Source of the DNA: Filimonas sp.
Lineage (GTDB): Bacteria; Bacteroidota; Bacteroidia; Chitinophagales; Chitinophagaceae
NCBI GenBank assembly: GCA_017306865.1
Contig: JAFKHH010000011.1
Span: 186,001 to 250,000 of the forward strand
Direction: 5' to 3'
DNA length: 64,000 bases
Below, piece by piece: positions 6,785 to 63,640 of the stretch (its first letter is position 1; every line of letters starts with the position of its first letter). Both the position numbers and the translations under genes were made by a program. The notes under the pieces were generated by a model. The model was given only the letters and a program-made list of their open reading frames with translations. It did no database searches and was not told the origin of the DNA.

Positions 6785-8581
6785 ATGAAAAAGATATTAT
6801 TCATACTAGCAATCACAATGGGAACCATGTCCTGTAATAAATTCCTGGACAGGAAACCTGTTACCTCATATACAACTGATGGCTTCTACAACAGTGAAGC
6901 GAATATTAAATACGGGCTGAATGGCGTGTACCAGTCTATCTATTGGGAAGTGCCTACGTCGCTGCCACAATATGTACTGTTTGATCATTATACGCCGTTG
7001 GGTATAGAGCGTACAGAAAATTCGTCTTTAGGTGCGGGTGGTGCATTAAACCCTGATAACGGTACTGTGTTAAACACATGGGTAATGGCATACCAGACAA
7101 TAGCGCGTTGCCATTCTGTGCTTGATGGTGCAAAACCTTTTATGGATAAACTAACGCCGGGCGCAAAACAATATTTGGCTGAGGCAAGAGTGATCCGTGC
7201 ATGGGCTTACTATTACCTGGTAAACCTGTATGGCGACGTGCCTTTCTTCACCAGTGCAGTAGGTACGGATGAATTCGCTGCGCCAAGAACACCACAAGTG
7301 CAGATCATAGATTATTTAATGACTGATCTGGATGATGCTGCAACCTATATGCCGTGGGTTTCTTCAGATGCAGGGCGTGCTGATAAATCGGTTGCACTTG
7401 GGCTGAAGGCGCGCATTGCATTGAATGCAGGTAGCCTGAATGTAGGAGGTAAGGGTGTAGAATATTTTAAACTGGCGCGTGATGCTGCAAAGCAGATCAT
7501 TGACAACAGTGGCCGTTCACTCAATCCTAAATTTGATGATCTGTTTACACGTACGGGACAGATAGCTAACGTAAACAAAGAACTGATCTGGCAACTGATG
7601 TATTCAGACCAGGGCGTAACAAGATACCATTACATTACTGTAGGGCAGGTGTCCCGTAACTATGGGCAGTGTGGCCGCTTCCCAACGCAGATCTTGTTTG
7701 ATACGTACGAGTGTACAGATGGTAAACGAATAGATGAATCCCCGCTGTATGATCCTAAACAACCCAACGTAAACCGTGATCCGCGTCTGAAATCTACTAT
7801 CTGGATGAATGGCGATACGATCATTGGTAACACGAGCGGTACGCCTGCAGGCCGTGTGAAATTTGTAATGGATAACTACAGGGCTATTACCTCTTTCTAT
7901 GATTATAATAGCGGTACATGGTCTAACAAAACAAATGCAGACATTAACAGTGCGGCTGCTTATACAAGCCCTGCAAACAGCGGCGTAGGTTTTCTCTGGA
8001 AAAAATATTGCAACGCAGATGATGAAAATGTGTTTAAGACAACGTACAACTGGATCTTTATGCGCTATGCTGAAATATTGCTGACGTATGCAGAGGCAAA
8101 AATAGAATTGAATGAACTGGACAATACGGTATATGATGCGATTGGTAAAGTGCGTAACCGGTCGGGCATGCCAGGCGTAGGAGCAGACAGGATCGGTAAT
8201 CAGGGTAAGCTGCGCCAACTGGTGCGCAGGGAACGTAAGGTGGAACTGGCGTTTGAAGGGCTGCATTTGTTTGACATGAGAAGATGGAAAACAGGTGCGT
8301 TGGAAAACAATAGCCCAACATACGGTTACCCAACTGCAACGGTGGTAAACAATGTAATTACCGCAGGCGGCTATCAGAATGTAACACCGGATATGATCCC
8401 TAACTTTAAAAAGTCTGCGGATGCAGACCTGAATGATATTCCTGATTATAGTGCGTATGCATCTAAATTGAAAAAGAGAGATGCGAATCGTTTTTGGGAT
8501 GATAAATTTTACCTGTGGCCATTGCCGCAAGGTGAAAGAGATAAAGACCCGAATTTGAAACCGCAAAACACGGGATATTAG
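6785..8581 (+). CDS. SusD/RagB family nutrient-binding outer membrane lipoprotein
   Basis: The 598-residue protein has a lipoprotein signal with the acylated Cys at C17 (TMSC), followed by the KFLDRKP start common in SusD proteins. TPR-like helices follow (for example ARVIRAWAYYYLVNLYGDVPF), then the typical C-terminal RRERKVELAFEGLHLFDMRR segment. SusD proteins form the lid over their SusC partner and capture ligand at the cell surface. Its partner is the SusC gene 18 bases upstream. No glycoside hydrolase or lyase gene is adjacent, so the locus is a minimal uptake unit with a redox enzyme. Confidence 0.95.
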   Translation: MKKILFILAITMGTMSCNKFLDRKPVTSYTTDGFYNSEANIKYGLNGVYQSIYWEVPTSLPQYVLFDHYTPLGIERTENSSLGAGGALNPDNGTVLNTWVMAYQTIARCHSVLDGAKPFMDKLTPGAKQYLAEARVIRAWAYYYLVNLYGDVPFFTSAVGTDEFAAPRTPQVQIIDYLMTDLDDAATYMPWVSSDAGRADKSVALGLKARIALNAGSLNVGGKGVEYFKLARDAAKQIIDNSGRSLNPKFDDLFTRTGQIANVNKELIWQLMYSDQGVTRYHYITVGQVSRNYGQCGRFPTQILFDTYECTDGKRIDESPLYDPKQPNVNRDPRLKSTIWMNGDTIIGNTSGTPAGRVKFVMDNYRAITSFYDYNSGTWSNKTNADINSAAAYTSPANSGVGFLWKKYCNADDENVFKTTYNWIFMRYAEILLTYAEAKIELNELDNTVYDAIGKVRNRSGMPGVGADRIGNQGKLRQLVRRERKVELAFEGLHLFDMRRWKTGALENNSPTYGYPTATVVNNVITAGGYQNVTPDMIPNFKKSADADLNDIPDYSAYASKLKKRDANRFWDDKFYLWPLPQGERDKDPNLKPQNTGY

Positions 8582-8760
8582 ATTTGAAATTCGAGATTTA
8601 AGATTTGAGATGATTGAAGCGAAGAATCTTTACCGTAGAGGCAGAGAGAATGGAGGATTTTTATTTACGATCTTTCTTTGCGCCCTTTGCGATACTTGGC
8701 GCCTTTGCGTGAAACAATCTCAAATCTTAAATCTCAAATTTCAAATCATCTCAGCATCTA
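8582..8760. repeat. Inverted repeat between susD and the downstream secreted protein
   Basis: The left arm (about 8581-8614) and right arm (about 8716-8750) are near-perfect reverse complements built from gatttgaaattcgagattt units. The spacer contains the TTTGCG-family text ctttgcgccctttgcgatac. The element sits inside a probable operon and could act as a transcript-processing, attenuating or insulating structure; nothing in the sequence decides which. Confidence 0.7.
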
Positions 8761-9960: not shown

Positions 9961-10366
9961 TTCGAGGATATAAGCGAAGGGTTTTAACACATAGGTACAT
10001 AGGAAAAAAGGAGACATAGAATAGTGCAGCGCTTTTCAGTGATAGTAATGTACGATTTGTTCAAGGGAGCATGAGGGCACATAGGGAAAAATGCTTCGCA
10101 TTTTCTTGGTGACAGCTTGGTGTCTTGGAGTCTTCGTGGCCGTTCTTTGCGATCTCTGCGATACTTTGCGCCTTTGCGTGAAAAAAATCGGGGCCTCTTG
10201 TTGCAGCCTTTGCACTACGAAGAAATGAACGCCAAATATGAGAAGTATTCGTTTTGTGCTCGGGAAGAAGCCCCTTTTATCTTTAAGTCAATTAGTCTGT
10301 AGATATTAAGTTACAAGATACTGGTTAACCGGTATCTTGTAACTATTTTAACATCGTTCTTACATC
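9961..10366. repeat. Intergenic repeat-rich region between convergent genes
   Basis: This 406-base gap holds tandem-like cacatagg/catagg text (about 9985-10095), followed by tcttggtgtcttgg and TTTGCG-family text (10137-10190), and ends with a strong hairpin listed separately. No coding potential was supported in either strand. Confidence 0.5.
10309..10344. terminator. Long hairpin between convergent genes
   Basis: agttacaagatactgg (10309-10324) pairs with ccggtatcttgtaact (10329-10344) through 16 positions with one G-T pair and a ttaa loop. It lies 22 bases beyond the stop of the minus-strand outer-membrane gene and is flanked by short A/T tracts, so a two-way terminator is likely. Confidence 0.6.
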
Positions 10367-15729: not shown

Positions 15730-15799
15730 GATTTGAAGGTAGGAAAAATTTCGTACGAACAAAATATTACCTTTCTTTTTGTGATGAACGGCAAAAAAC

Positions 15800-16030
15800 A
15801 AAATTGTTTAATTGTTGCATGGCTAAATTGTTGATCCGCATTATGACTTATGTAACAGCCTAACAATTAGATCATGTAACCATATAACAATTTCTTTATG
15901 AGCATTATATACTTCTCTGTGTTCTCTGCGATACAATAACGCAAAGAGCAAACTCTACTCACAACTGACTACTCACCACTCACTTTATAAACCTTATTTA
16001 CTTTACATACTTCTTCTTATATTTAATTGC
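15800..16030. repeat. Composite of several intergenic repeat families
   Basis: Within 230 bases four recurring families follow one another: aattgttgcatggctaaatt with its complement accatataacaatttc (15803-15895), ctctgtgttctctgcgatac (15910-15945), ctgactactcaccactcac (15963-15983) and taaaccttatttactttaca (15986-16010). It lies in the 336-base gap upstream of the Gfo/Idh/MocA gene, which otherwise shows nothing but the A/T-rich promoter area. Confidence 0.55.
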
Positions 16031-17492: not shown

Positions 17493-17576
17493 AAATATTG
17501 CATGGCCAGGTTGTTGCACTGGCATTTAAAGTTTGCAATATGCAGGCAACAATTTAACCATATAACAATTCAATAA
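17493..17576. repeat. Intergenic imperfect inverted repeat (TTAACCATATAACAATT family)
   Basis: atattgcatggccaggttgt at the left is loosely complementary to acaatttaaccatataacaa at the right. The element ends at the stop codon of the VOC gene. Members of the same family lie at 15.8, 19.3, 32.4, 38.95, 42.6 and 54.9 kb. Confidence 0.5.
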
Positions 17577-18486: not shown

Positions 18487-19236
18487 ATGGTAACACTGGA
18501 AAACAAAGTAGCCCTGGTAACAGGTGGTAGTCGCGGCATCGGAGCCGCTATAGTAAAGCGATTGGTAAAAGAAGGTGCAAAAGTTGCCTTTACTTATCTG
18601 AATGCAACAGAAAAAGCTAATGCTGTAGTAAAAGAACTAAGCGATGCAGGCGGTAGTGTAGTTGCTATAAAAGCAGACAGTGCCGATGCTGCTGCAGCAA
18701 AGGATGTGATAGCGCAGGTGATCAGTGCGTTTGGCAGGCTGGATATATTGGTCAATAGCGCAGGCGTGTTTGTAATCAGCCCGGTAGATGAGTTGCAATA
18801 TGATGTGAACGCGCTTGCAACACAATATGCAGTGAATGTAGCAGGCGTGGCTGCAACTACAAGAGCCGCGGCACAATATATCAGCAATGGAGGGCGGATC
18901 ATTTCTATTGGTTCTGTAGTAGCACAAAGGATAGGAGGCCTGTCTGGCTTTGCAGATTATGCTGCATCTAAGGCTGCTGTGACAGCCTATACAAGAGGTT
19001 GGGCATGGGACTTGGGTAAGAAAGGTATTACGGTAAATACAATAGAGCCTGGCCCTATCAATACGGATATGAGTCCCGAAGATCACGAGTTTGCAGAAGT
19101 GCTAAAGAAAACGTTGCCGCTTGGCCGCTACGGGCAACCGGAAGAGATAGCTGCATTGGTTGCATTTCTTGCAGGCCCTGAAGCCTCGTTTATAACCGGC
19201 TCTACGTTAACGATAGATGGGGGAAGGAATGCGTAA
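18487..19236 (+). CDS. SDR family NAD(P)-dependent oxidoreductase
   Basis: This 249-residue classical short-chain dehydrogenase shows the cofactor motif TGGSRGIG (12-19), NSAG (90-93), the catalytic Ser143 and the YxxxK pair Y158/K162. It ends with the usual SFITGSTLTIDGG strand. It resembles 3-oxoacyl-ACP-reductase-like SDRs that are commonly annotated with uncertain substrate. No neighbouring gene suggests a pathway; it is bounded by repeat-rich gaps on both sides. Confidence 0.92.
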   Translation: MVTLENKVALVTGGSRGIGAAIVKRLVKEGAKVAFTYLNATEKANAVVKELSDAGGSVVAIKADSADAAAAKDVIAQVISAFGRLDILVNSAGVFVISPVDELQYDVNALATQYAVNVAGVAATTRAAAQYISNGGRIISIGSVVAQRIGGLSGFADYAASKAAVTAYTRGWAWDLGKKGITVNTIEPGPINTDMSPEDHEFAEVLKKTLPLGRYGQPEEIAALVAFLAGPEASFITGSTLTIDGGRNA

Positions 19237-19256
19237 ATAATTGTAGCAGTGTTCTA

Positions 19257-19327
19257 TTGTTTAATTGTTATATGGTTACATGGTTTCGAGTGCGCACCAA
19301 CAATGTAACCATATAACAATTAAACAA
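19257..19327. terminator. Perfect 25-base inverted repeat between convergent genes
   Basis: The arms 19257-19281 and 19303-19327 are perfect reverse complements of 25 bases (inner part ggttacat/atgtaacc) separated by 21 bases. It lies between the convergent SDR and PhnB-like genes and belongs to the TTAACCATATAACAATT repeat family. It could work as a two-way terminator, but there is no proper T-run. Confidence 0.65.
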
Positions 19328-37646: not shown

Positions 37647-38894
37647 ATGAAAAATGGAACCCCTTCAAAACTACTGGCATTACCCATCTTAGTAGCGGCA
37701 TTAGGCTATTTTGTAGACATCTACGACCTTCTTTTATTCAGCATTATACGTGTACCCAGCATACGCGATCTGTACGCACATTTACCGGCAGCGGAAATAG
37801 ATAACCTTATTACCACAAAAGGTGAGATGATTATCAGCTTGCAGATGGTTGGCCTGTTGGTAGGCGGTATTATCTGGGGCGTAATAGGAGATAAGAAAGG
37901 GCGCCTGAGCGTACTGTTTGGCTCTATTTTATTATACTCATTGGCAAATATTGCCAACGGGTTTGTTACAACGGCTGATCAATATGCGTGGGTGCGCTTT
38001 GTAGCCGGCCTTGGTCTTGCAGGAGAGCTAGGCGCAGGCATTACACTGGTATCAGAATTAACGCCGAAAGAAAAACGCGGTATTGCAACCTCTCTCGTTG
38101 CTGGTATCGGTTTAACCGGGGCGATCGTAGCCTTTTTTATCAAAGAAGAATTTGCGTGGCGTACTTGTTATTTTATCGGAGGCGGTTTAGGTTTCCTATT
38201 GCTCATACTACGTATCTCTGTGTTTGAGAGTGGCATGTTCCATGAGGTGAAAAAGATGGATGTGCAACGTGGCAACTTCTGGATGTTGTTTGCAAAATGG
38301 GAACGTTTCAAACGCTACCTCACAGGTATTTTAATTGGTTTGCCTACCTGGTTTGTAATAGGCGTCTTGGTTTCATTCAGCAAAGAGTTTGCAAAATATT
38401 TCGGCATTCTGGAGCCGGTAGATCCGGGTAAAGCAGTGATGTATGCTTACGCCGGTATTTCTATTGGTGATATTTTAATAGGCTTTGTAAGCCAGTGGTT
38501 GAAAAGCCGTAAGAAAGCATTGTATGTTTTCTATGGCATCACCATCATCTTCATGATACTCTACTTTACCACACAGCAGAATGGTACGGCCTCTGGTATG
38601 TACTGGATCAGTGCGGGGCTTGGTTTTGGTACAGGGTTCTGGGCCATCTTTGTAACAATGGGAGCGGAGCAGTTCGGTACGAACCTGCGTGCTACAGCCG
38701 CTACTACTATTCCTAATATGGTACGTGGTATGTTACCATTGGTTATTATTTTATTCAAATACCTGCGCGAGACTACCGGCAGTTATATTACCGGCGGCTG
38801 GATCACGGGTATTATCGTTATGTCTATCGGTCTTATCGCCGTAGCCACATCTAAAGAAACATTTGGAAAAGATTTGAATTTTGTAGAGGAATAG
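37647..38894 (+). CDS. MFS transporter
   Basis: The 415-residue protein has 12 predicted membrane segments and the MFS loop 2-3 motif GDKKGRLSVLFGS (about 82-94). FVAGLGLAGELGAGITLVSELTPKEKRG lies around TM4-5 as in sugar/organic-acid porters. FVDIYDLLLF in TM1 resembles the aromatic acid/metabolite:H+ symporter and sialate subgroup. The substrate cannot be assigned. It stands alone upstream of a repeat-filled gap. Confidence 0.9.
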   Translation: MKNGTPSKLLALPILVAALGYFVDIYDLLLFSIIRVPSIRDLYAHLPAAEIDNLITTKGEMIISLQMVGLLVGGIIWGVIGDKKGRLSVLFGSILLYSLANIANGFVTTADQYAWVRFVAGLGLAGELGAGITLVSELTPKEKRGIATSLVAGIGLTGAIVAFFIKEEFAWRTCYFIGGGLGFLLLILRISVFESGMFHEVKKMDVQRGNFWMLFAKWERFKRYLTGILIGLPTWFVIGVLVSFSKEFAKYFGILEPVDPGKAVMYAYAGISIGDILIGFVSQWLKSRKKALYVFYGITIIFMILYFTTQQNGTASGMYWISAGLGFGTGFWAIFVTMGAEQFGTNLRATAATTIPNMVRGMLPLVIILFKYLRETTGSYITGGWITGIIVMSIGLIAVATSKETFGKDLNFVEE

Positions 38895-39060
38895 GAAAGG
38901 AATTTGAAAATTTGAAGATGTGATAATTTGAAAATTGCTTAATTGTTGGATGGTTAAATTGTTATGAAAACAACAATTTAACCATTCAACAATTAAACAC
39001 GTTTCGCCGCCGATTCTCAAATTTTCAAATTATTACATTTTCAAATTCCATTTCTTTGCA
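38895..39060. repeat. Nested inverted repeats (AATTTGAAAATTTG and TTAACCATTCAACAATT families)
   Basis: An outer pair of arms, aatttgaaaatttgaagatg (38901 on) and its complement near tctcaaattttcaaattatt (39013 on), encloses an inner pair, attgttggatggttaaattg and caatttaaccattcaacaat. Both form imperfect hairpins. The whole gap between the MFS and glycosyltransferase genes is occupied. Confidence 0.7.
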
Positions 39061-39062
39061 TC

Positions 39063-41100: not shown

Positions 41101-41356
41101 AAGTTTATTTGCCTATTCAATTGTAAGCTTTCATTTGTCTACCGACGGTGTTACTTTTTGTCTTGATACAAAAAGTAACCAAAAAGATCAAGGCTGCAGA
41201 AAAGCAGGCTAAAAATTGTCCTGCCCGCCGAAATCCATTGAACTCGCCGCTTACAGGTTAAATAAGCAAGTTGCTTCTGGCTCAAACAGCAATGGATTTT
41301 TCCGGCGTTCATGCCAATTTTCTTAACGCAGCTTTTCTAAGGCCGGATGCATCTCC
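41101..41356 (+). repeat. Dispersed structured repeat, copy 1
   Basis: This copy and the one at 62246-62503 (opposite orientation) share a 67-base identical block (41119-41185), a 30-base identical block (41197-41226) and further close similarity up to about 41356. It starts with a perfect hairpin gttactttttgt/acaaaaagtaac (41150-41179). A nested imperfect stem follows: ggctgcagaaaagc with gcttttctaaggcc, aaaattg with caatttt, and gaaatccattg with caatggattt. Confidence 0.85.
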
Positions 41357-41501
41357 GCAAAAAATTGACTAGGAAACGCTTCTCCTTTATCAATATCCTT
41401 ACGGAAATTAATTAGAGAATAATGACAAAGCAGTGTACATGATACGATTGTTATATACTATATAAACCTTATATACTTCACACACCTTCCCCTAAACAAA
41501 A

Positions 41502-42486: not shown

Positions 42487-42549
42487 TTTTTTATTTTTTG
42501 GGTGAGCTAATCAAAGAACCGTATTGAATGTAAGATTTTTTTCGAAGAA

Positions 42550-42698
42550 AAAAATAATTTGAAAATATGCAAATTTGAAAATGGTCAAATTGCTACATGG
42601 TTATATTGTTAAATGGTTGAAGTATTATCAAATTCCGATAACAATTCAACCATTTAACAATGCAGCAATTAAGCCTATTGCTACATTTTCAAACTATC
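42550..42698. repeat. Nested inverted repeats upstream of mdh
   Basis: Outer arms aatttgaaaatatgcaaatt (42557 on) and attttcaaactatctt (about 42683 on) enclose inner arms tggttatattgttaaatggt (42597 on) and accatttaacaatgcagcaa (42647 on). The composition is the same as at 38895-39060. Confidence 0.65.
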
Positions 42699-46270: not shown

Positions 46271-46782
46271 GCGGGTAAGTGTATAAAGTATATAGGGTAT
46301 ATAAAGTGGTCAGCTTTATATACCCTTTTTGTTTTTGGTGAAATAGGATGGATTGAGTGACTTTGATTAATTTTTAGTACTTATCTCCTCCTGGGTACGT
46401 TATTTTTTGCATTTTTAAGACAAGTGACGTATTATCGCAACCATCTTCGGGTTATTTACGTTTAATGATCAGTGAGAAAGTGAATATGGGGCTTAAACAG
46501 TAAGGGCGATGCCATAACCCATTTGGGAAGTGCCTGCTGCGCTATACGAGATGTTTTATAAACCAGGCACAGCTACTGATAAAGAAAGAAATGATATGGA
46601 TAGGATGTGAAATTCAGACAGTTGGGTATAGTCATAGGGCCAGCGTAGATGGGTTACAAACGATGTAAAAGGGAAGGGTTAAAGAAATAAAATCGGTGAA
46701 AAATAAATTTTAGGCGGCATGAAACGATTCGCATAGAAATGCTGTCAAAGTAAACATGTATTCAATCTTAAATATCCTAAAG
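46271..46782. other. Intergenic region before the lipoprotein gene
   Basis: The 512 bases begin with the accC terminator. The remaining 450 bases show no repeat family and no convincing ORF; a 30-codon open stretch (about 46517-46609) reads like a fragment of protein sequence but has no recognisable relative. Confidence 0.35.
46294..46336 (+). terminator. Terminator after accC
   Basis: agggtatataaag (46294-46306) pairs perfectly with ctttatataccct (46314-46326) around tggtcag, followed by a tract of T with one G. Confidence 0.88.
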
Positions 46783-62126: not shown

Positions 62127-62139
62127 GTAGGGAATTGGT

Positions 62140-62225
62140 ATATAGGGTTTATAAGGTATGTAAAGTATATACTGTCTCGGACTTTATATACCCTATATAC
62201 CTTATAAACCCTATATACTTTTATA
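62140..62225. repeat. Long imperfect hairpin of TATAAACCTTATATAC units
   Basis: The left arm tatagggtttataaggtatg (62141 on) and right arm accttataaaccctatatac (62200 on) are close reverse complements; the same units occur at 46.3 and 41.45 kb. It lies directly after susD. Confidence 0.7.
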
Positions 62226-62245
62226 AAGTTGTCTGACTAAGTCTT

Positions 62246-62503
62246 AAGGAGAAACGTCTGGCCTCAGAAAAGCTGCGTTAAGAAAATTGGAGTGAACGCC
62301 GGAAAAATCCATTGCTGTTTGAGCCAGGCACAACTTACCTGCTCACGCTGTAAGCGGCGAGTTCAATGGATTTCGGTGGGCAGGACAATTTTTAGCCTGC
62401 TTTTCTGGAGCCTTGATTTTTTTGGTTACTTTTTGTATCAAGACAAAAAGTAACACCGTCGGTAGACAAATGAAAGCTTACAATTCAACAATACAGTAAA
62501 CTT
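62246..62503 (-). repeat. Dispersed structured repeat, copy 2
   Basis: The reverse complement matches copy 1 (41101-41356) along most of its length, with identical blocks at 62419-62485 (67 bases) and 62378-62407 (30 bases). The hairpin gttactttttgt/acaaaaagtaac is at 62425-62454. It ends just upstream of the metallophosphoesterase start. Confidence 0.85.
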
Positions 62504-62515
62504 AATTAGACACTA

Positions 62516-63640
62516 ATGAAGCGTTCACACACTTCCCCATTCACCCACATGCGAAGATTATTCAACGCATTCTTGTTGGCCGTTATTACGCTCAGCGTTA
62601 CGGCACAGGATAAAAGCATATCCTGCGATGGCCCTTACATTTTTTATAAGAACAACCTGGTGTATAGTAAAAGTATTATAGATGGGAAGGTGTGTATAGA
62701 TAGTTTTCCTGCGAAAGAAAAAGCAAAACATATTTTACAAGTGCAGGTAGCAGCGCATCCCGAATGGGCATTCCCTGTGCAGTTACAGGAAACAATTACA
62801 CCCCGCCCCGCTGTACATGCTGCTACAGATAAAATGTTTTTTCTGTCAGATATAGAAGGAGAGTTCGAAGCATTCCGGTCGCTTCTCATCGGGAATAAAA
62901 TAATGGATGAAAAGTATAACTGGATATTTGGAAATAACAGGCTGGTAATAGCGGGAGATCTGTTTGACAGGGGGAATGAAGTAGCGCAGTACATCTGGCT
63001 GTTGTATAAACTGGAGTATGATGCGCGCAGCCATGGTGGTGATGTACATGTAGTATTAGGCAATCACGATATTATGAACCTGAAGGGCGACTTCAGGTAT
63101 GTGCAACCAGCATACATGAACAATGCTGCATTGTTAAACGAATCGTATGCTGCACTCTATGGCAATAACACAGAACTAGGCCGCTGGCTTCGAAGTAAAA
63201 ATATTGTAGAAAAGATCGGCGATCTATTGGTATTGCATGGTGGTGTCTCGCCCGAAGCGATCAGTAAACAATTTTCATTGGAAAGGATCAATACTAGTTG
63301 CCGTCCTTTTTATGATACGCCAATTAAACAGATCCCTGATTCAGTAAAAGCTTTTTTAGGAAACACTGGTTTATTCTGGTACAGGGATTATTTTTCAAAA
63401 GATGTGGATTGTACGCGCACAATCGATAGTACTTGTTCGTTCTACGGCGTAAAGCAGATTGTTGTAGGGCATACCATTACTAAAGAAAATATTGCGCTCT
63501 ACAGGCAAGCTACAATAGTAGGATTGGATGTAAACCAGCATAAAGGACAACACGCAGCAGCATTGTGGGAACGCAAGCAATGGCAGGTAACTGATAATAA
63601 AGGAAACCATGCACCTATGCCAGCGATTGCCGCTTTCTGA
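62516..63640 (+). CDS. Secreted calcineurin-like metallophosphoesterase
   Basis: The 374-residue open frame has a signal peptide ending near TAQ (30); the ATG at 62549 (MRRLFNAFLLAV) is an alternative start. The phosphoesterase motifs are SDIEG (D112; the usual His is replaced by Glu114), GDLFDRG (G147-G153), LGNHD (181-185), VLHGGVSPEA and VVGHTITK. It resembles the PPP-type serine/threonine phosphatase layout and probably works in the periplasm. The substrate is unknown. It is upstream of proC, on the same strand. Confidence 0.87.
   Translation: MKRSHTSPFTHMRRLFNAFLLAVITLSVTAQDKSISCDGPYIFYKNNLVYSKSIIDGKVCIDSFPAKEKAKHILQVQVAAHPEWAFPVQLQETITPRPAVHAATDKMFFLSDIEGEFEAFRSLLIGNKIMDEKYNWIFGNNRLVIAGDLFDRGNEVAQYIWLLYKLEYDARSHGGDVHVVLGNHDIMNLKGDFRYVQPAYMNNAALLNESYAALYGNNTELGRWLRSKNIVEKIGDLLVLHGGVSPEAISKQFSLERINTSCRPFYDTPIKQIPDSVKAFLGNTGLFWYRDYFSKDVDCTRTIDSTCSFYGVKQIVVGHTITKENIALYRQATIVGLDVNQHKGQHAAALWERKQWQVTDNKGNHAPMPAIAAF

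Follow-up and report, generated by a model that had tools for sequence, protein, structure and literature searches.

The window analyzed here, a stretch of 64,000 nucleotides from the Filimonas sp. assembly GCA_017306865.1, contains two copies of a repeat in opposite orientation, at 41101–41356 on the plus strand and at 62248–62503 on the minus strand. They are identical at 229 of 256 positions without a gap. An earlier note on this DNA had recognized the pair and its orientation, but gave the start of the second copy as 62246; the identical blocks of 67 and 30 bases named there were recovered, together with a further exact run of 35. The perfect 12-bp hairpin (GTTACTTTTTGT/ACAAAAAGTAAC, 41150–41179) and the three nested pairings listed in that note are all present. 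ORFs of 100 aa or more are absent from both copies, in agreement with the suggestion that an element without a transposase gene would be mobilized in trans. The 250-base unit of the note belongs to a real family, but its limits were too narrow, as the homology reaches the terminal inverted repeats (TIRs) of a MITE of about 386 bp. Most of the 250 bases are a cargo core of about 200 nt inside the MITE, with its own, wider distribution. The coordinates of the features are given in Table 1. In copy 1, the left repeat is perfect and the right one is degenerate, and in copy 2 most of the right arm is gone.

Table 1. Features of the two repeat copies in the window
Feature	Position	Strand	Basis
Left terminal inverted repeat of MITE copy 1, TCATTGTTGTCCGAGTAAA	41084–41102	+	0 mismatches to the TIR pattern; letters checked
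P1 hairpin, 5' arm	41150–41161	+	Perfect complement of 41168–41179; P1 covaries
P1 hexaloop CTTGAT, pseudoknot strand 1	41162–41167	+	Loop nucleotide 6 covaries with its partner
P1 hairpin, 3' (purine) arm, ACAAAAAGTAAC	41168–41179	+	Covariation; letters checked
A-rich spacer CAAAAAG, C plus mirror of P1 purine-arm positions 2–7; proposed third strand	41180–41186	+	Length rule and mirrored letters
Pseudoknot strand 2, ATCAAG	41187–41192	+	Covariation; letters checked
P2 outer stem, 5' strand	41192–41205	+	8 of 11 counted pairs changed on both sides; 97.1% of cells paired
P2 interior: internal-loop motif GCTAAAA/TTAACGC, further nested stems, terminal motif AACTCG..CTCAAACAG	41206–41330	+	Alignment A1
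P2 outer stem, 3' strand; right border of the core (GGCC)	41331–41344	+	Covariation; letters checked
Degenerate right terminal repeat of copy 1, right arm internally deleted	41407–41425 (about)	+	5 mismatches; flanking 9-mers match at 5 of 9
Core of copy 2 (P1 at 62425–62454, P2 border at 62260)	62260–62454	−	R1 match at 62380–62456, E = 2.2e-20
Left terminal repeat of copy 2	62501–62519	−	Copy alignment; letters checked
Right terminal repeat remnant of copy 2	62228–62241	−	Assigned by eye

Other repeats are also found in the window. Degenerate inverted or direct intergenic families lie at 8578–8747, 15792–15833, 17539–17573, 19229–19324, 38886–39062, and 42541–42674; they are AT-rich (...AACAATTTAACCATATAACAATT..., ...ATTTGAAATTTGAGATTT...), and many form local palindromes. 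A 44-nt repeat of the TTCTTTGCGYCCTTTGCGATACTT type is present in three copies (1511–1554, 8674–8717, and 10143–10186).

A BLAST search of the source genome (6.15 Mb, 42 contigs) gave 112 candidates, of which the best 40 all had E ≤ 1.0e-94. The search for further genomic copies that the earlier note had suggested was also made with R1, a covariance model of the 5' half of the core; with 150 of 4170 candidates scored, it gave 95 matches at E ≤ 1e-3, including 88 at E < 1e-9. The genome thus holds about 90 copies of the core, two of which are those in the window. Alignment of the flanks showed that the copies extend in both directions to imperfect TIRs, TCATTRTTGTCCGASTAAA. With up to 3 mismatches allowed, the TIR pattern occurs 103 times in the genome, compared with 12 times for a reversed control, and paired TIRs are spaced by about 386 bp, the length of the MITE. 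Target duplications of 9 bp are exact in 15 of 51 TIR pairs and match at 8 or more of 9 positions in 26. The mean match of the flanking 9-mers over the 51 pairs, which include two evidently spurious ones (0–1 of 9) from the wide length window, is 6.73 of 9, against 3.95 ± 0.18 when the partners are shuffled (reached in 0 of 5000 shuffles). The duplications lean to ATANNNTAT. In line with this lean, several copies sit, as judged by eye, in tracts of the TATATA..CCTTATAAACC type, an intergenic repeat found in the window at 15982–16010, 41457–41485, 46279–46326, and 62138–62227. None of the 30 copies checked in this genome lies within an ORF of 80 aa or more. The TIRs and 9-bp duplications therefore identify the window repeat family as a MITE in its own genome: it is short (about 386 bp) and multi-copy, it has TIRs and a duplication of constant length, and it lacks a transposase gene. 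By eye, the copies resemble mosaics of left and right arm types.

The same TIR was found in 45 of 294 genomes of the family, including the source genome. TIR pairs about 1.41 kb apart occur three times in one of them (G234) and once in each of two others (G278 and G107). An element of G234 (L071) shows by eye an exact 9-bp duplication, ATTTTATTT, and contains two overlapping ORFs with Pfam DUF4372 and DDE_Tnp_1 domains. The IS4-like transposase of this element (199–1406) is split over two overlapping frames, reflecting either frameshifted expression or a broken copy. The right arm of the MITE matches the right end of L071 at 73.6% over 106 nt (score 60, shuffled maximum 25), and 19–20 of the terminal 21 bases of the left arm are as in L071. 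The MITE is a non-autonomous passenger of an IS4-like (DUF4372 + DDE_Tnp_1) insertion sequence. A transposase binding the terminal repeats would have copied it in trans, making the 9-bp duplications. In the draft source genome (42 contigs), no match to the DUF4372 family PF14294 was found, and the DDE part of L071 gave no match at E ≤ 0.01. Since the assembly contains no such transposase gene, the MITE family is probably stranded there now.

The range of the core is wider than that of the MITE. Within the family, BLAST with the core gave matches in at least 80 of 294 genomes and at least 45 of 101 genera, mostly to the first third of the core. Within the phylum, R1 gave matches in at least 105 of 395 genomes and at least 52 of 171 genera, which bears out the impression of the earlier note that similar text exists in other Bacteroidota. 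The tallies are lower bounds with 2 candidates per genome scored in the family search and 12 in the phylum search, and all genomes searched belong to the phylum Bacteroidota. An exact-pattern scan listed at least 111 stretches, from Edaphocola, Terrimonas, Taibaiella, Cytophaga aurantiaca, Bacteroides luti, and Faecalibacter as well as MAGs of Ferruginibacter, Flavobacterium, Melioribacteraceae, Ignavibacteria, and others. Several cores are present in a MAG whose title, Williamsia sp., is that of an actinobacterium (L200, L224, L227, L232, and L259); this MAG is probably a mislabelled or mixed bin. Same-strand arrays of cores with a spacing of about 300–460 bp occur in several genomes. In one of them (L178, 3396–4412), a CysD-like and a CysN-like gene with the same orientation (named by eye) enclose four tandem cores, and in two genomes (L181 and L184) trinucleotide microsatellites (TTA/TAC) border many core copies. 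The source genome also has five copies of a second core subtype, TIR-less and with a short P2 (L334–L338); in L334, a stem change appears by eye to be compensated.

Core and TIR are largely separable. Among 29 cross-genus core loci (L032–L060), two have a weak TIR match (3–4 mismatches) and the others none, and among 29 TIR loci of other genera (L065–L092 and L094), a hairpin match was found only in L077, 1.1 kb from the TIR. In several genomes without the MITE, the copies have the core in common but not the flanks. By eye, the borders of these copies fall at P1 on one side and at the GGCC end of P2 on the other. A different MITE, of about 479 bp and with the ends ACTGAGTATCCGC, contains the core in Edaphocola. 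By these ends, 33 distinct elements were found, mostly at Edaphocola loci, and 30 of them have the core hairpin and its partner. The 8-mers flanking this MITE are identical in 20 of the 33 elements, with a mean match of 6.85 of 8 compared with 4.07 ± 0.22 for shuffled partners. We conclude that the core is carried by at least two different transposons. The end pattern of the Edaphocola MITE was found in 8 of 294 genomes, and 60 of its 68 places (some overlapping) are in two genomes of one genus; a search of the 294 genomes with the exact pattern identified no autonomous partner.

No match to the core was found in phage and plasmid collections or, by exact pattern, in viral contigs, and a phage or plasmid origin was rejected. 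With cmscan and Rfam 15, the window gave only a tRNA, and 14 cross-genus loci gave at E ≤ 5 a single weak match, outside the core. When 825 ORFs of 111 core loci were clustered, inspection of the 25 largest clusters by eye revealed no gene family that recurs beside the core.

The fold of the core consists of the P1 hairpin, a pseudoknot formed by the P1 loop, CTTGA[T/C/A], with a strand immediately downstream, and the long P2 stem. The window segment 41101–41380 folds better than its dinucleotide shuffles on both strands (z = −3.06 for plus and −3.95 for minus). The fold, together with two inner helices, was examined in alignment A1 (n = 22), which comprises the window sequence and 21 of 23 full-length cross-genus elements; L040 and L045 were dropped because of large insertions. 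Variants with a short P2 (L044, L050, L053, L055, L058, and L077) are in alignment A2 only, and L033 and L060, which are cut or masked, are in neither. In A1, 97.2% of the cells are paired, compared with 85.9% in shuffles, and 18 of 32 pairs are changed on both sides, compared with 7.8. The covariation value is 0.317 against 0.099 ± 0.010, and none of 500 shuffles reached the observed pairing, double-change, or covariation values. Sliding the register of the partner strands lowered the pairing to 62.5% or less, and RNAalifold predicted 44 pairs on A1, 34 of which have double changes. The closing pair of P1 is UA in 11 rows, CG in 7, GC in 3, and other in 1, and the pseudoknot column pair 19–43 is UA in 14, CG in 5, AU in 2, and other in 1. 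The pseudoknot was also assessed at loop nucleotide 6, where the parse is free. Its combination with the partner is T-A in 116, A-T in 17, C-G in 13, and C-A in 2, so that 146 of 148 distinct hairpins are Watson–Crick. Many of the 148 are copies from a single genome, and 9 further hairpins have no partner. The pairings of the core, including the pseudoknot, are supported by covariation, and the covariation test suggested by the earlier note came out in favor of its view that the repeat is conserved as a folded molecule. Of the two outcomes that would have refuted this view according to the note, neither was observed, as further copies are numerous and the substitutions follow the pairing. Unpaired letters are also conserved across genera, namely GCTAAAA opposite TTAACGC and AACTCG opposite YTCAAACAG.

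The hairpin singled out in the earlier note is thus part of a pseudoknot, and the spacer behind it mirrors its purine arm. Between P1 and the second pseudoknot strand lie a C and a purine tract, and this tract has as many bases as P1 has base pairs between its second pair and the end of the A-run, both included. This length rule holds in 83 of 99 distinct sequences, compared with 34 ± 4 after shuffling (maximum 51 in 20,000 shuffles). The 99 analyzable pairs came from 119 distinct parses of 315 parsed hairpins, and distinct sequences of one genome are not independent. They were collapsed only in the count of the commonest form per genome group, where the rule holds in 77 of 82 groups (L270–L300 treated as one bin) against 30 ± 4 (maximum 47). 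For a hairpin to be parsed, P1 had to comprise 8 bp or more and the pseudoknot had to match at 5 bases; the evidence for the pseudoknot is the separate count at loop nucleotide 6. Of the 16 exceptions, five (L041, L045, L013, L248, and L298) are interrupted by G and their mirror is exact further out, two are L220 sequences (one off by one, one with a faulty parse), and nine break the rule. The alignment is a mirror and not a direct repeat: with 0, 1, or 2 bases before the A-run, tract length minus run length is −1 (7 of 8), 0 (7 of 7), or +1 (69 of 84). When mirrored, the cells are A-A 482, G-G 13, A-G 3, and G-A 5, compared with A-A 481, G-G 28, G-A 53, and A-G 10 when read as a direct repeat. 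An A at P1 position 2 always faces A (15 of 15) and a G always faces G (5 of 5), and a C faces A 54 times and G 25 times. As an example, the P1 purine arm AAAAGAAA, found in L045 and in Melioribacteraceae, is accompanied by the spacer AAAGAAAA. Since a third strand along a helix requires such a mirror, we infer that the spacer would lie along P1 and form a triple helix with it. A triplex of the purine type, either on the plus strand or in DNA, would also agree with the mirror symmetry.

The earlier note had folded the plus strand, but the asymmetry between the strands favors the minus strand. In all 22 rows of A1, the fold of the minus strand is better than that of the plus strand, by a mean of 9.2 kcal/mol, and it has 142 G.U pairs compared with 59. 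An A.C combination on the plus strand is a G.U pair on the minus strand. In pairs predicted on both strands within seven genome groups of very unequal size, which are pooled in the count, plus-strand A.C outnumbers G.U by 50 to 23 event types (p = 0.002). The L184-type group is reversed (4 G.U, 3 A.C) and Terrimonas is tied (1, 1). The consensus helices across genera show no such excess, with 11 cells each of G.U and A.C. Near the base of P2 there are conserved U.G and G.A mismatches, which are wobble or sheared-type on the plus strand only. Divergence is lower at paired than at unpaired positions in the source genome (0.031 versus 0.061) and in Edaphocola (0.039 versus 0.083), but not in the Terrimonas, L184-type, and L180 copies (assessed with the same plus-strand fold). 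The minus-strand spacer is U-rich and would run parallel to the purine arm, an arrangement compatible with U.A-U and C+.G-C triples. Taken together, the minus-strand RNA is probably the molecule that matters.

The main rival is that the core acts as DNA, in a cruciform, single-stranded, or H-DNA-like form recognized by a recombinase, a nucleoid protein, or a replication factor. Intramolecular DNA triplexes classically form at mirror repeats. The equal counts of 11 in the cross-genus helices, with no G.U excess on either strand, also suit a DNA role, as do the tandem arrays and an orientation to genes that is nearly free. However, the excess of 50 over 23 and the better minus-strand folds in all 22 rows are unexpected for symmetric double-stranded DNA, and we regard this rival as possible but rather unlikely.

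The gene context was scored for 154 copies with flanking ORFs, none of which lies inside an ORF of 200 aa or more. Between codirectional genes, 54 copies are minus-sense and 31 plus-sense; 42 are between convergent and 27 between divergent genes. In one of four sets (L032–L060), other gene pairs of the same loci are skewed likewise, so part of the orientation bias is not specific. The bias is mild and is a weak ally of the minus-strand reading. The absence of these copies from the ORFs, and P2 as a long hairpin on either strand, would also be expected of a transcription terminator or attenuator that tolerates either orientation and has spread between genes. We consider this improbable, because a conserved T-run was not seen by eye after P2 or P1 at the borders, the convergent bias is not strong (42 of 154), and a terminator has no need of a covarying pseudoknot or a mirrored spacer.

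The pairing may also be neutral, kept without any function by template switching at hairpins and gene conversion among copies. Changes on both sides far exceed those on one side (67 versus 7 cells), and the mosaic-like appearance of the copies also points in this direction. However, template switching yields complements and not mirrors; it cannot give the spacer rule or the matching G interruptions, and the unpaired internal-loop letters are kept across genera. The absence of function is therefore unlikely, more so than a terminator. A slightly smaller chance is left to a REP/RAYT-type or IS200/IS605-type element moved by a Y1 (HUH) transposase that recognizes hairpins. The borders of the core do coincide with hairpins, and standalone copies have no IS4-type TIR. 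In the accessible text of PMC6006769, the Bacteroidetes TnpA-REP subclass 2.6 is described as flanked by "atypical secondary structures", which would suit such an element. This explanation is disfavored because the core was not found at E < 0.01 (best E = 0.064) in any of 34 Y1_Tnp loci taken with 1.5-kb flanks, which comprise all 4 of the source genome and 30 of 74 from 20 core-rich genomes, and because no recurring transposase was seen by eye in the 25 largest ORF clusters beside the 111 core loci. At one Y1_Tnp locus (L062), REP-like palindromes (..CGTTCGCTAAAGCGAACGGCAATGAAAGGC..) are repeated downstream of the gene; they are not the core. Least probable of all are attC-like recombination sites of an integron-type cassette system, which would agree with the same-strand arrays but are disfavored by the lack of an ORF of 50 aa or more between the four L178 copies, the sole array checked, and of a recurring recombinase near the cores (111 loci, by eye).

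Here, we propose a two-layer explanation, an IS4-like MITE with a phylum-wide pseudoknot core acting as minus-strand RNA, and we think that it is somewhat more probable than not. In the minus-strand RNA, the U-rich spacer would form U.A-U (and C+.G-C) triples at the 3' end of the folded unit. In read-through transcripts of intergenic regions, the core would then act as a compact 3' structure, either by blocking exonucleases or by binding a protein. Copies of the core would thus be tolerated or useful, and transposons that had picked it up would spread it. The role at transcript ends is the weakest step of this proposal, and we put it forward as a speculation that may well be wrong. Two further observations count against the explanation. 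The hexaloop is paired over its full length without slack, so P1 and the pseudoknot may alternate rather than coexist, and several MITE copies have lost the interior of P2 while their end is still recognizable. The broadest form of the proposal, in which mobile structured RNA modules with a mirror-coded triple-helix pseudoknot function as RNA throughout the phylum and have been captured repeatedly by unrelated transposons, is tentative, and we would lean against it as a whole; in this form, the core would be the bacterial counterpart of a structured RNA that hitchhikes on DNA transposons.

If the two-layer explanation is true, many intergenic repeats of Bacteroidota are one folded family of unrecognized architecture. 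The mirroring of helix and spacer, one-for-one, provides a way to test for triple helices at the level of sequence, and other RNAs can be scanned for it. Finding the core in two different MITEs prompts the question of whether the module helps the transposon or the host. This kind of MITE is already known and the present family is new. For the architecture of the core, no prior description was found in the open-access literature, which does not establish its absence from print.

The window repeat resembles the MITEs of IS4-family insertion sequences in being short and ORF-less, with TIRs, target duplications, and ends in common with an autonomous element. It differs from them in that about half of its length is taken up by a structured core, conserved and independently distributed, and not by a remnant of the insertion sequence. 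ERIC, BOX, and RUP are high-copy, intergenic, palindromic, folding repeats without a transposase, and they are MITE-like in some accounts. The window repeat is likewise high-copy, intergenic, palindromic, and folding, and has no transposase gene; those repeats belong to other phyla, whereas the core is phylum-wide and occurs in at least two different MITEs. We know of no pseudoknot with a mirrored spacer in ERIC, BOX, or RUP. A term search returned no Bacteroidota terms in the accessible text of PMC10969869 and PMC2267715. As to REP/RAYT systems, these are also hairpin-based interspersed repeats of bacteria, Bacteroidetes included according to the accessible text of PMC6006769. The core is longer and pseudoknotted, and it has no Y1 gene nearby in the loci tested. 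In telomerase RNA and the ENE elements, triple helices are formed by a spacer strand along an A-U helix. The core is proposed to have a similar H-type pseudoknot with a spacer strand along an A-U helix, although its triple is deduced from covariation only, and it differs from these RNAs in being mobile and high-copy and in not standing before one gene like a riboswitch. The guanidine-III riboswitch, as described in the accessible text of PMC5696562, is also a triple-helix pseudoknot. In its working, the core would resemble the folding repeats of the ERIC or BOX type and, if the triple is real, the triple-helix pseudoknots, without being a tested member of either group.
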